Shown here: positions 13,680 through 18,439 of the stretch, piece by piece
Numbering within the stretch: position 1 is the stretch's first letter
Layout: the number at the start of each line of letters is the position of its first letter
Assembly (NCBI GenBank): GCA_951812755.1
Contig: OX638329.1
Span: forward strand, 1,039,339-1,103,338
DNA: 64,000 nucleotides
DNA from: an uncultured Latescibacterota bacterium
GTDB taxonomy: Bacteria > Latescibacterota > UBA2968
Reading direction: 5' to 3'
Program-made: the position numbers and the translations under genes
The notes under the pieces: generated by a model
Told to the model about the DNA's origin: nothing
Database searches by the model: none
Seen by the model: the letters and a program-made list of their open reading frames with translations, nothing else

Positions 13680-16400
13680 ATGCATTCCAGATATTTTTTT
13701 CTTCTACTTTGTCTTTTGCCGCTTCAGGTGCTGGCAAGTTCGCCGGCATATCAAAAGGTCGCCGATGTTTCGCTTGCAGGGTCGCTTTCTCTCCAGCATT
13801 ATCGCCTTACCAATGGTCTTCAGGTTGCGATTGTGGAGGACGATACCCGCCCCGTTGTGACGTGTCAAATTGCCTATCGCGTGGGGTCTTCTCACGAGGC
13901 ACCCGGTCGGCAGGGCATGGCGCATCTGGTCGAGCATCTCGCGCTGGATCGGTCATTTTTAGAATCGCTCCATCTTTTGGGCGCGCCACACGCCAATGCC
14001 AGCACATCGAGAGACGGTACGAAATACTACGCGACGATTCCCAAAGCGCAGCTGGATACGCTGATCGCCTATTTTGCACAGATTATGACACAGTTTGACG
14101 TTCCGCGGGAAGCATTCGATCTCGAAAAAGAGGTGGTTCTGGGTGAATGGGCACGCAGCGCCAATAGTGCGCGTCGGCTTCTTTATAGAAAATTATATGC
14201 CCGCATGTTTGCAGGACATCCCTATCGGTACGATATTTTGGGTCACCAAGATACGATTAAAACTTTTACTCTGGAGCAAGCGACCGCATTTCACAAGCGT
14301 TATTACGTGCCGAATAATGCATGTCTTGTAATTGTTGGAGATGTGAAAGGGGCTGATATTTTGCCCGTTGTGGTTCAAAATTTTGGAGGGATTCCGGAGG
14401 ACGAGGGGTTTATTCACGATGATGTTGATACGCTGGATGTCGCGTCTGTACCCCAGGATTCCCTGCAATCTACAAGTGGGTTGCATACTTCTGTTTGGGG
14501 CGTTTGGCGTATTCCGACAGGTATGCATCCCGACTCTTATCCTTTGTATTTGTTTGATCAAGCTCTTTTTGAAGGTGAATATTCTCTTGCGCGTCAAAGA
14601 CTAATCGGTTCGGGAAAGGTTCTTGGGATAAACTCCTATTTTCTCTCTCTGCGCGATAAAGCACTGTATTATTATATCGTCGAATTACCTTCGGGTGCGG
14701 GTTATGACGTTAGGGCAATGCCACAAATTATTCAAACGGCTGTCGATTCTTTTTCTGAGGAGCACCTCTTGCTGGCGAAAAACGAAGCGCGTAAGAGTTT
14801 ATATCGCACGATAACCAGTCAGTCCCGTCTGGCAAATGCGATGTCTTCTGGATTTATTCGCACCAATGATCCTGCTTATGATCTCAAATGGATACAAAAT
14901 CTCGATGGTGTTACTGTGGCGGATATCAAACGGGTGGCGAAGCAATATCTTTTAGACCAGCCGCCCCACACCTTTGTTCTGTACACATCACCAAAGCGAC
15001 CCCCATCGCGGCGCGTGTGGCTTTATGTGGGTGTTGTGTGGGTTCTCGTGGGACTGGGAGGATGCTGGTACTGGCGACGGCGAGCATTTGCTGTCGGGTT
15101 ATTTGTAGTCCTTTGCAATATTTCGGCGGCAGATGCAGAAATCCCCAATCACAAGATATATTACGTGCAGGATACGCGCGTATCGCAAACGCGACTTTGG
15201 ATGACGTATTATACCGGAGGCTATCGGCAGGAGACAGTAGAGACGCACGGTTTGTCCTTTGCGTTTCTACGGCTGAGTGATTTGGCATTACACGAGGAAG
15301 ATAAAAAAGAAATGGATCGACTTGGCGCAGAGTTCTGGTTCAATATTTCTGACCGATATGTCACCGTTGGCATGACCGTGTTTAGTGAAAATTTTGAGGC
15401 GGCTTTGAGACATCTGAAAGCGATGATGGAAGATCTCAAATTTTCTGAAGAACTGCTGAACAGGGAACGGGCGCGAATCATAGACGATTTTGAGGATTAT
15501 ATCGATGACCGCGAGACGACAGAGCTTTTTCGCTATCACCTGTACAAATACAATAAAGACCGGCGGAGGGGCACGCGCACAGCACTTGAAAATCTGACTG
15601 TGCAAGACTTGCAAAAATTTTGGGATAAGACTTTGCGTGCAAAGGTGCTTTTTTTCTATGTGATTTCCGATCTCAGTGAATCGGAGATTGATCGCAGTTT
15701 ACGCGTGATAACGCACAACCGACCTCGAGATGGTTTTTCGCCACATCCCCGGCCAAAACGCAAAGAAATTACGGGTATACGTGCTATCATTTCTCCGTCT
15801 TCCCATTTGACTGATAATTGCCATTGGATAACCAATGGCTTGCCCCGCACAAATGAGGATTGGTTTGCACAAACGATTCTGGTCAATGCATTGAACCGCC
15901 TTTTGTTCATTCGGCTGCGTGAACAAAAGGGCTGGTGTTATTCGGCAGGCGTGAGTATTAGGGAATGGGTGTCGCCGCCAATAATACGCTTTTCGGCTAA
16001 TCCTCGAGATGCTCATACCTCTAAGCTTGTTCCCGAGATGTTTCGATTGATTCACCAGTGTTTGTCTGAGCCAGATTTTTGGGCGCAAGTGGAGAAAGGA
16101 CGCGAAAGGCTCAAGCGGGCGTATCATTTGCAACTCGGTCCGCAGACCAGGCTCAGCCAGCAGGTGCGCTATGACCGAGATGGGGTGCCTGTTCTTTCTC
16201 TGGCGGAATACGAATCGGCTATTGATGGGGTGACAGAAGAGGATATTCGCCGCGTTTTCAAAAGGATGCTAAAAGGTCAGAACAAATTGCCACTGCTGAT
16301 GTTTATTTATGGGAATGCCGACAGCATTAAGGACGCATTGAGGCGGGGGGATATCATGGGCAGGACAACGGTTTTTGATATTCAGACTCTGCTTGAGTAA
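13680..16400 (+). CDS. M16 family zinc peptidase, two M16 modules joined by a membrane helix
   Basis: This is a 906-residue exported protein. The signal peptide covers about residues 1-20. The first M16 module carries the inverted zinc motif HLVEH at residues 82-86, with the downstream glutamates in EKEVVLGEW (149-157) as third ligand candidates. Near residues 443-480 a hydrophobic stretch (WLYVGVVWVLVGLGGCWYW, then AFAVGLFVVLC) looks like an internal membrane anchor followed by a signal-like sequence ending SAADAE. The second module (about 490-900) has the M16 fold, including FIRLREQKGWCYSAGV, but no HxxEH, as expected of the inactive partner. Normally such pairs are separate genes or fused without a membrane segment. 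The gene is monocistronic and ends in the terminator-like hairpin at 16457. Confidence 0.88.
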   Translation: MHSRYFFLLLCLLPLQVLASSPAYQKVADVSLAGSLSLQHYRLTNGLQVAIVEDDTRPVVTCQIAYRVGSSHEAPGRQGMAHLVEHLALDRSFLESLHLLGAPHANASTSRDGTKYYATIPKAQLDTLIAYFAQIMTQFDVPREAFDLEKEVVLGEWARSANSARRLLYRKLYARMFAGHPYRYDILGHQDTIKTFTLEQATAFHKRYYVPNNACLVIVGDVKGADILPVVVQNFGGIPEDEGFIHDDVDTLDVASVPQDSLQSTSGLHTSVWGVWRIPTGMHPDSYPLYLFDQALFEGEYSLARQRLIGSGKVLGINSYFLSLRDKALYYYIVELPSGAGYDVRAMPQIIQTAVDSFSEEHLLLAKNEARKSLYRTITSQSRLANAMSSGFIRTNDPAYDLKWIQNLDGVTVADIKRVAKQYLLDQPPHTFVLYTSPKRPPSRRVWLYVGVVWVLVGLGGCWYWRRRAFAVGLFVVLCNISAADAEIPNHKIYYVQDTRVSQTRLWMTYYTGGYRQETVETHGLSFAFLRLSDLALHEEDKKEMDRLGAEFWFNISDRYVTVGMTVFSENFEAALRHLKAMMEDLKFSEELLNRERARIIDDFEDYIDDRETTELFRYHLYKYNKDRRRGTRTALENLTVQDLQKFWDKTLRAKVLFFYVISDLSESEIDRSLRVITHNRPRDGFSPHPRPKRKEITGIRAIISPSSHLTDNCHWITNGLPRTNEDWFAQTILVNALNRLLFIRLREQKGWCYSAGVSIREWVSPPIIRFSANPRDAHTSKLVPEMFRLIHQCLSEPDFWAQVEKGRERLKRAYHLQLGPQTRLSQQVRYDRDGVPVLSLAEYESAIDGVTEEDIRRVFKRMLKGQNKLPLLMFIYGNADSIKDALRRGDIMGRTTVFDIQTLLE

Positions 16401-16456
16401 TAATTTTCTTTTAGACTCTTGACGTTGTTTTTGAAGTTGGCTATGTTTTATATGCC

Positions 16457-16529
16457 GCGGGTTGCCTCAGCATTTCTGTTTATTTCCTCCCTCCCGATAA
16501 ATAGAGTGCTGTTGGCAGCCCGCTTTTTT
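16457..16529 (+). terminator. hairpin A, terminator of the M16 gene with a C-rich apical loop
   Basis: The outer stem GCGGGTTGCC / GGCAGCCCGC (one wobble) continues with CAGCA/TGCTG and an inner TTTAT/ATAAA. It presents a 13-nt loop TTCCTCCCTCCCG. A T run follows at 16524. It probably terminates the M16 transcript. Confidence 0.75.
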
Positions 16530-16578
16530 ATTGACAGGGTTATTTTTGGAATTTATTTTGCTTTTGTAGCAGAATTAC

Positions 16579-16624
16579 AAAGCCTTTGAGGGTGTCGGGA
16601 GGGAGCCCTCAAAGGCTTTTTTAT
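16579..16624 (+). terminator. hairpin B, terminator-like with a G-rich loop
   Basis: A perfect 14-bp stem (AAAGCCTTTGAGGG / CCCTCAAAGGCTTT) holds a 13-nt loop TGTCGGGAGGGAG and is followed by T residues. Ten loop bases (CGGGAGGGAG) are exactly complementary to the loop of hairpin A. Confidence 0.8.
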
Positions 16625-16639
16625 TTTATAAATAAAAAA

Positions 16640-16673
16640 GAGGCGCCGGTTGGGAGGGTATAACCAACGCCTC
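16640..16673 (+). ncRNA. hairpin C of the cluster, GGGAGGG loop
   Basis: The stem GAGGCG / CGCCTC is continued by GGTT/AACC over a small internal loop. The apical loop is GGGAGGGTAT. There is no T run, so it is not a terminator. Assignment as part of an RNA is tentative. Confidence 0.5.
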
Positions 16674-16738
16674 AAGGGATGTTGCATGGTACCGGATTAG
16701 ACGCATTTGTACAGAAAAGAGTTCCAAGAAAGAGTAAC

Positions 16739-16773
16739 GGCGTTGACTCAGCCGGGGTATAGGAGTCAACGCC
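16739..16773 (+). ncRNA. hairpin D of the cluster
   Basis: A perfect 11-bp stem GGCGTTGACTC / GAGTCAACGCC has a 13-nt loop AGCCGGGGTATAG. It lacks a T run. The loop length equals that of hairpins A and B. Confidence 0.5.
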
Positions 16774-16781
16774 GATATTTT

Positions 16782-16800
16782 TGCGACACGCTTTGTCGCA
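16782..16800 (+). ncRNA. hairpin E of the cluster
   Basis: A 7-bp stem TGCGACA / TGTCGCA with loop CGCTT is followed by an AT-rich stretch. It could be the 3' end of a structured transcript or a weak terminator. Confidence 0.4.
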
Positions 16801-16930
16801 TATTATTTTACTTTTAAGGGCTGGAAAGGTTCCCGAATGGTGTGATTTTTTGTTGGCTCAAACAAGTTTTAACTTTTTGTTTTATGGTATATATTGTTGA
16901 ATCTCTAAAAGATGTGACCATGGAGAATAC

Positions 16931-18439
16931 ATGCTAAACAAAAAAATAGAACGCTGGGGGCTGTGGCTCGGTCCGATAATTGGGCTGGGGGTCACGGTTT
17001 TTGGAGATCTCAAGCCGGGACATCCCGAGGTGACACATACGGCAGGTGTGGCCTGCTGGATGGCGATTTGGTGGATGACAGAGGCCGTGCCTCTGGCGGC
17101 GACGGCTCTGTTGCCCGTGGTGTTGTTTCCCCTGCTGGGTATTATGAGCGGGCAAGAGGTTGCGCCGCTTTATTTGAATCACATTATCTTTTTGTTTGTC
17201 GGTGGTTTTATGGTGGCACTGTCCATGCAGCGCTGGAATTTACACCGGCGAATTGCCCTGCGCTTGCTGCTCCTTTTTGGGGGGTGTCCCCGGTGTATCC
17301 TGACGGGTTTTATGCTGGTAACGGCGTTTTTGTCTATGTGGATTTCCAATACGGCTACAACGATGATGATGGTGCCTATTGCGCTTGCAATTGTGGTCAG
17401 GATGGAAGAGCAGGGTGTGGCAAATAGTTCTTTTGGCACAGCCGTATTTTTGGGGGTGGCTTATGCGGCTTCGATTGGCGGAAGTGCAACGCTTGTGGGC
17501 ACGCCGACCAATTTGTCTTTTGTGAGGATTCTATCGATTCATTTTTCAGAGGTTCCCGAGATTTCGTTTGCGACGTGGTTTGCTTTTGCTCTGCCTCTGG
17601 CATGCGTGATGCTCGTTTGTGCGTGGGGTGCGCTTTGTCTCGTTTTTGGCATTCGCGGGCGAGGCGATGATATTGATATGAGTGCGGTGCGTGCGCAATA
17701 TGTCGAGTTGGGACCAATGTCATTTGCCGAGAAGGTCGTGCTGGCCGATTTTGTGTTGTTGGCACTGTTGTGGTTGTCGAGACGCCCCATTCAAATTGGC
17801 GATTGGACGTTGCCGGGCTGGTCTCAGTTTTTTGAATCTGGCGGATTGATAACCGATGGGTCGGTTGCTATGGCAATGGCTCTGATTTTGTTTGTCGTGC
17901 CCGCGCGAGATGGCGCGAAATCTAGGGTGATGGATTGGCAAACGGCTGGCAATGTGCCCTGGCATATTGTGTTGCTGATTGGCGGTGGTTTTGCGCTGGC
18001 AAGTGGGTTTAAGGAGTCGGGGTTGTCGCTCTGGTGCGCGCAGCAACTGGAGGGTATGGGTAGCTTACATCCTCTATTTTTGGTCGGTGGTTTGTGTGTG
18101 ATGATGACCTTTTTGACTGAGTTGACTTCCAATACGGCAACGGCAGAGATGTTTCTTCCGGTTTTGGCGGCGTTATCTGTGGCTGTGGGTCTCAATCCAT
18201 TGTTGCTGATGATTCCAGCCACGTTGTCGTGTTCTTGTGCGTTTATGTTGCCGGTAGCTACGCCACCCAATGCAATTGTGTTTGGCACAGATAGAATTTC
18301 TATGCGCGATATGGCGCGTGTGGGCGTGTGGTTGAATTTGGTTGGGGCTGTGATGATTACTGCTGCGATTGCTGTTGTTGGTCGCGTTGTGCTGGGTATT
18401 GAACTCGGGGTGATGCCCGATTGGGCGCAATTAGAGTAG
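16931..18439 (+). CDS. DASS (SLC13) family sodium:dicarboxylate/sulfate symporter
   Basis: This is an inner-membrane symporter of 502 residues. Both signature Ser-Asn-Thr motifs are present: WISNTATTMMMVP (about residue 140) and TELTSNTATAEMFLP (about residue 400). In known structures these motifs bind Na+ and the anion. A HIIFLFVGGFMVALSMQRW segment also matches the family. The GGAGA ribosome site precedes the ATG at 16931. The probable substrates are C4-dicarboxylates or sulfate, taken up with Na+, which would fit a cell that makes a Na+ gradient with NQR. The exact anion is not predictable. It converges with the ABC exporter gene, 17 bp apart, with no visible terminator. Confidence 0.92.
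   Translation: MLNKKIERWGLWLGPIIGLGVTVFGDLKPGHPEVTHTAGVACWMAIWWMTEAVPLAATALLPVVLFPLLGIMSGQEVAPLYLNHIIFLFVGGFMVALSMQRWNLHRRIALRLLLLFGGCPRCILTGFMLVTAFLSMWISNTATTMMMVPIALAIVVRMEEQGVANSSFGTAVFLGVAYAASIGGSATLVGTPTNLSFVRILSIHFSEVPEISFATWFAFALPLACVMLVCAWGALCLVFGIRGRGDDIDMSAVRAQYVELGPMSFAEKVVLADFVLLALLWLSRRPIQIGDWTLPGWSQFFESGGLITDGSVAMAMALILFVVPARDGAKSRVMDWQTAGNVPWHIVLLIGGGFALASGFKESGLSLWCAQQLEGMGSLHPLFLVGGLCVMMTFLTELTSNTATAEMFLPVLAALSVAVGLNPLLLMIPATLSCSCAFMLPVATPPNAIVFGTDRISMRDMARVGVWLNLVGAVMITAAIAVVGRVVLGIELGVMPDWAQLE

Follow-up and report, generated by a model that had tools for sequence, protein, structure and literature searches.

Kissing antisense RNA pairs of the RNAI/RNAII type, familiar from plasmids, are opposite-strand transcripts of one locus. 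In Caulobacter crescentus, the small RNAs (sRNAs) SisA-D (alphaR8) are described as carrying a short C-rich core, UUUCCUCCCU, that pairs with a G/A-rich stem-loop of the sponge CrfA, by which they are titrated and lowered (PMC12559287); the published account of Bacillus subtilis RoxS (RsaE) likewise reports C-rich regions that are titrated by G-rich regions of the stand-alone sRNA RosA (PMC8216469). For the Rhizobiales RNAs alphar14/NfeR1 and SmelA075/SmelA099, an ultraconserved C-rich anti-Shine-Dalgarno (anti-SD) motif is described in hairpin loops whose stems are variable (PMC10746234, PMC3927594). Here we describe two adjacent hairpins, A and B, with a C-rich and a G-rich loop, respectively, within a window of 64,000 nt (the whole stretch of DNA analysed) from an uncultured Latescibacterota bacterium whose genome (G000) is a single contig of 6.53 Mb. 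Computational analysis established that both hairpins are conserved, as are their promoters and loops, that the stems covary, that the loop match is largely maintained and that the two elements co-occur. We think it probable, if only just, that A and B are adjacent, independently transcribed small regulatory RNAs, namely an sRNA with a C-rich loop and an anti-sRNA, or sponge, with a G-rich loop. In such a pair, the C-rich loop of A (UUCCUCCCUCCCGAU) would belong to a type of loop that pairs with G-rich segments in other RNAs, the matching G-rich loop of B would engage it in a loop-loop contact of as many as 10-11 bp, and each RNA would titrate or destabilise the other, giving an sRNA with its own sponge; A and B would presumably be transcribed and make contact in the cell, and any mRNA target is likewise presumptive. 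Parallels with SisA/CrfA and RoxS/RosA suggest A as the regulator and B as the sponge, although the roles could be reversed.

Hairpins A and B, followed by two further hairpins, C and D, lie in the interval that separates an M16 peptidase gene (13680-16400) from a sodium symporter gene (16931-18439). A consensus scan on the plus strand, on which A, B and C all lie, predicted a sigma70-type promoter for RNA A at 16419-16447 (TTGACG at 16419-16424, a 17-nt spacer and TATGTT at 16442-16447) and another for RNA B at 16531-16559 (TTGACA at 16531-16536, a 17-nt spacer and TATTTT at 16554-16559), the −35 box of the latter starting directly 3' of the T-run of A. RNA A would span 16454-16529, with its hairpin at 16457-16523 and a T-run at 16524-16529, and RNA B 16566-16622, with a short leader, a hairpin at 16579-16619 and a T-run at about 16617-16622; both were delineated by fold, stem covariation and covariance models (R1, refined as R3, for A and R2 for B), and their transcript ends were placed from the positions of promoters and T-runs. 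Since each has its own sigma70-type promoter and T-run, A and B look like two tandem single-hairpin RNA genes of ~75 and ~60 nt, the simplest anatomy that the sequence suggests, and one joint RNA was rejected because a conserved promoter of its own precedes each hairpin. Inspection by eye also found a TTGAC-type −35 box and a TA-rich −10 box upstream of A in G013, G019, G020 and genus g6, and TTGACA with a similarly spaced TA-rich −10 box upstream of B in the other lineages.

An earlier note on this DNA had reported the two adjacent hairpins under the title of perfectly complementary 13-nt loops. Both hairpins are present and fold stably, hairpin A with −38.1 kcal/mol (z −9.0; 200 shuffles) and hairpin B with −26.6 kcal/mol (z −5.0; same shuffle test), but the title overstated their match: the A loop (TTCCTCCCTCCCGAT, 16484-16498) and the B loop (TGTCGGGAGGGAG, 16593-16605) share 11 contiguous Watson-Crick complementary bases (CTCCCTCCCGA/TCGGGAGGGAG; 16487-16497 with 16595-16605), beyond which the predicted duplex contains one extra G-U pair. 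Pairing of the two loops in G000 was estimated at about −14 kcal/mol after correction for accessibility. Among 200,000 pairs of uniform random 13-nt loops, 142 contained a run of 10 or more base pairs, G-U included, and 3,395 of 200,000 (1.7%) did so when the C-rich and G-rich compositions were kept; given these chance figures, the match taken alone is only suggestive, and it is conservation in relatives that carries the case. The 6.5 Mb genome contains 13 copies of the 10-mer TCGGGAGGGA, and among these 13 contexts, inspected by eye, evident strong hairpins were seen only at the two of this locus; a genome-wide repeat was therefore rejected, as the loop 10-mer is found elsewhere but outside evident strong hairpins.

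Hairpin C (16640-16673), defined by fold and by an alignment of 11 genomes, has a G-rich loop, TTGGGAGGGTAT, which is TCGGGAGGGA in G001, G004, G005 and G008. The computed A x C duplex energy of −16.7 kcal/mol hints that hairpin C might be a further partner of A. A short open frame 3' of hairpin C was set aside, as it is not kept in G008 (by eye). Hairpin D consists of the stem GGCGTTGACTC/GAGTCAACGCC and the loop AGCCGGGGTATAG; together with the next hairpin (16738-16800) it is nearly invariant in all 11 genus genomes, including G008, while nearby spacers vary, and it perhaps belongs to a third RNA or to the leader of the symporter gene. Matches to hairpin D elsewhere proved not to be the same hairpin.

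DNA similar to the locus was found in 10 of the 10 other genus genomes examined. We aligned G000 with nine of them, omitting the more diverged G008 and including G005 and G007 only from the promoter of A onward. Across these 10 aligned genomes, the 15 columns of the A loop, the 13 of the B loop and the four promoter hexamers are free of variation, whereas variable columns make up 41 of 102 in the end of the M16 gene, 8 of 19 in the B leader, 7 of 17 in the B tail and 4 of 17 in the spacer of the A promoter. G008 has a different B stem and an A loop that is shorter by one base, with 10 of the 11 loop pairs kept. Two-sided changes were detected at 13 of the 26 pairs of the A stem compared with 4.0 in shuffles, using an alignment fitted to the model and hence biased towards it, and at 7 of 26 pairs on a plain MAFFT alignment; for the B stem, 6 of 13 pairs changed on both sides compared with 1.8 in shuffles. 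Lack of conservation or covariation in relatives, which the earlier note had named among the outcomes that would refute its idea, was looked for and not encountered: the loops are invariant in 10 genomes, the stems covary, and the loop match persists in five lineages with some two-sided changes.

The loops are kept in other genera although the stems differ. All nine of the nine A/B combinations, drawn from the five lineages, retain 8-11 Watson-Crick pairs of the 11, the complementarity expected of an sRNA and its sponge. Two-sided loop changes are found in G020 at pairs 1 and 10 and in genus g6 at pair 11, and uncompensated mismatches in G013 (C-A), G008 (U-C) and G015/G018 (A-A). Of 120 lineage permutations, 4, counting the true one, matched as well as the lineages' own partners; this count rose to 12 of 120 with another B of G013, and to between 12 and 32 of 120 when G-U pairs were allowed. 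Duplex energies were in accord: the own pair was the best in its row for G000, G020 and g6, with the G000 result being a tie in a pattern shared with the A loop of G013, but not for G013 and G008. We regard co-change of the loops as moderate support for their pairing, not as proof.

Among the 47 class genomes, covariance models detected A in 18 (all 11 from the genus, plus G013, G019, G020 and G015-G018) and B in 17 (E < 1e-10), the same list minus G019, such that A is present in 17 of the 17 genomes with B. At the phylum level, A was found in 18 of 64 genomes, the same 18. A scan with an A-loop pattern, built from the known loops and hence not reaching very different ones, covered 84,980 species with one genome apiece and returned 8 records, seven of them titled Latescibacterota, Latescibacteria or plain bacterium and one Gemmatimonadetes; the last, PAQK01000070.1, groups with these Latescibacterota genomes in a kinship table and is possibly mislabelled. 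G019 carries A alone, none of its exact-match loci being a convincing B hairpin. Weak matches to R2 in G014 (C854), G033 and G045 were rejected for want of a G-rich loop; another, in G012 (C25), has a GGGGAGGGAG loop and a T-run, yet A was not found in that genome. Short exact matches in G029 and G013 (C403) lie in apparent coding sequence and are likely due to chance. A paralogue, A2, was observed on the minus strand of G000 (C1:3493110-3493185) as a long terminator-like hairpin with a CCCUCCC loop, and was matched by the A models in 11 of 11 genus genomes, 10 of which were inspected. Weak second A-like matches (E 0.002-0.003) were also seen near the A locus of g6 (G018:C46:85473-85549 and G015:C28:171963-172039), the one in G015 having a similar stem and a C-rich loop.

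The genomic neighbourhood of the pair differs between lineages. In the genus, the order is M16 peptidase, A, B, C, D and symporter, and in G002, G005 and G006 B is separated from C by a sigma70-family gene and a 58-codon gene (G005: L034 1472-2613). G000 has neither, and G008 retains only the 58-codon gene, a pattern suggestive of the loss of both genes from G000. The tandem A-B order is maintained in other genera, in G013, where an Rce1-like protease gene precedes A and B, and in G020, where a HAD hydrolase gene lies on one side of the pair and an aldo/keto reductase gene on the other. In genus g6, B adjoins an aldo/keto reductase gene in G016 and a HAD gene in G018, with A elsewhere; the reductases of G016 and G020 were identified by Pfam matches.

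This context bears on the strongest rival explanation, in which B acts, or once acted, in cis as a leader or attenuator for the gene that follows (the aldo/keto reductase in family f2; the sigma70-family factor in G002, G005 and G006) and a trans-acting A binds the B loop, thereby altering read-through or translation. Its standing comes from family f2, in which B is close before the reductase gene with no clear T-run: in g6, B is separated from the downstream reductase start by a few tens of bases and has no strong T-run. T-runs are weak or absent in the family, where the form of an intrinsic terminator is not clear, and this also counts against the sRNA and sponge reading. In the genus, by contrast, B closes with a strong T-run, the sigma gene of G005 has its own promoter-like sequence and ribosome binding site 3' of B (by eye), and B is still invariant in G000 and others from which the sigma gene is missing. 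A small hairpin in the leader of another sigma70-family gene, in G014 (C899; L046/L238), has a loop whose complementarity to the A loop region extends over ~18-19 nt, which favours this rival, but the match has a BLAST E of 0.2, with which chance is possible, and A was not found in G014. On balance, we judge a leader role of B unlikely.

A second rival, in which A is an anti-SD sRNA that acts on many mRNAs and the likeness of B to the targets of A is secondary, starts from the A loop itself, which contains CCUCC and CCCUCCC, is complementary to the Shine-Dalgarno (SD) sequence and, as an anti-SD loop, resembles those of the Rhizobiales RNAs. We scanned 301 predicted gene leaders, covering ~0.46 Mb of the 6.5 Mb G000 genome with start codons assigned by a simple rule, and found a 7-nt match to the A loop in 14 of them, an 8-nt match in 1 and a 9-nt match in none; at −12 kcal/mol or below, the loop bound 64 leaders and its reversed sequence 75. 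Since the reversed control did equally well or better, broad anti-SD targeting by A is unsupported, and we consider this rival decidedly unlikely. The likeness to SD and anti-SD sequences claimed in the earlier note thus stands for the A loop as complementarity to SD, without an accompanying excess of complementary ribosome binding sites. Of 139 listed full-length matches, 26 are the A, B and C sites themselves and 71 were inspected; the remainder comprised further sites in G002, G003 and G010 and the majority of those in G009. In the 71 inspected, no conserved full-length A target was seen just before an evident gene start in any cluster common to at least three genomes; candidate sites before a possible start were seen in single genomes (G001 L213 and G008 L175). 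The best predicted partner of A within the searched sequence is B. Hfq (PF17209) was found in 0 of 47 class genomes by a search that was positive in 5 of 14 control genomes, which does not place A among Hfq-dependent sRNAs.

A bolder reading can be offered tentatively and is, in our estimate, rather improbable: a two-gene RNA switch, in which tandem, separately promoted single-hairpin RNAs would have each other as main partner, without recognisable Hfq or CsrA, and the A:B ratio would set a linked gene (sigma factor or aldo/keto reductase), loop-loop pairing rather than mRNA targeting being the conserved function.

In G000 both hairpins end in a T-run and so have the stem and T-run of an intrinsic terminator, and within the window each also resembles the terminator of its own RNA. 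These features speak for a third rival, a pair of ordinary terminators with loops that are complementary by chance or through shared composition, and composition alone reproduced a match in 1.7% of the shuffles described above; terminators, however, do not need conserved loops, yet both loops are invariant amid varying flanks and are kept in other genera on different stems, and a conserved promoter precedes each hairpin. Loop conservation thus already makes this rival unlikely, and we leave it very little probability. The proposal of the earlier note that the locus is a structured RNA and not two plain terminators is borne out as regards the invariant loops and covarying stems, and gives way to a picture of two putative, separately promoted RNAs with terminator-like hairpins. 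Least credible is action of B (and A) through an RNA-binding protein such as CsrA, a binder of GGA in loops, for although GGA occurs twice in the B loop and 14 of the 47 class genomes, G013 and G020 among them, encode CsrA (PF02599), the protein was found in 0 of 11 genus genomes and is absent also from G015-G018 and G019, which have A, so that the pair does not fit CsrA-titrating RNAs, a CsrA sponge is largely refuted by a genus without CsrA, and the C-rich A loop would be left unexplained.

We found no small or noncoding RNA papers for Latescibacter in the literature searched, and an Rfam scan of the window was likewise empty at the gathering score, with only sub-threshold matches (E 0.1-0.6) in 16400-16930; RsaE reached E 0.45 on the opposite strand, far below its gathering score. 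A and B may be the first described regulatory RNA family of the uncultured phylum Candidatus Latescibacterota. Read as an sRNA and its sponge, they would form a compact module of a C-rich-loop sRNA beside its apparent anti-RNA, and the model is open to direct study in vitro, for which two short RNAs suffice.

Compared with plasmid pairs of the RNAI/RNAII type, A and B are likewise two hairpin RNAs with complementary loops, but they would be separate genes on the same strand, complementary in their loops alone. The Rhizobiales anti-SD RNAs, as described, share with A conserved loops on variable stems; they have three or four hairpins each, the motif CCUCCUCCC and a role in mRNA silencing, whereas A has one hairpin with UUCCUCCCUCCCG and showed no preference for ribosome binding sites in the leaders scanned. 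The module most closely echoes SisA/CrfA and RoxS/RosA, without recognisable Hfq, and the likeness lies in the logic of C-rich against G-rich pairing, with neither a sequence relation to SisA/CrfA nor kinship with RoxS/RosA shown. RosA is described as an RNA of ~225 nt with several G-rich regions, whereas B is one short hairpin; in the account of SisA/CrfA, a single-stranded C-rich core pairs with the aid of Hfq, whereas in A and B the contact would be between two hairpin loops encoded by neighbouring genes, in genomes that yielded no Hfq match.
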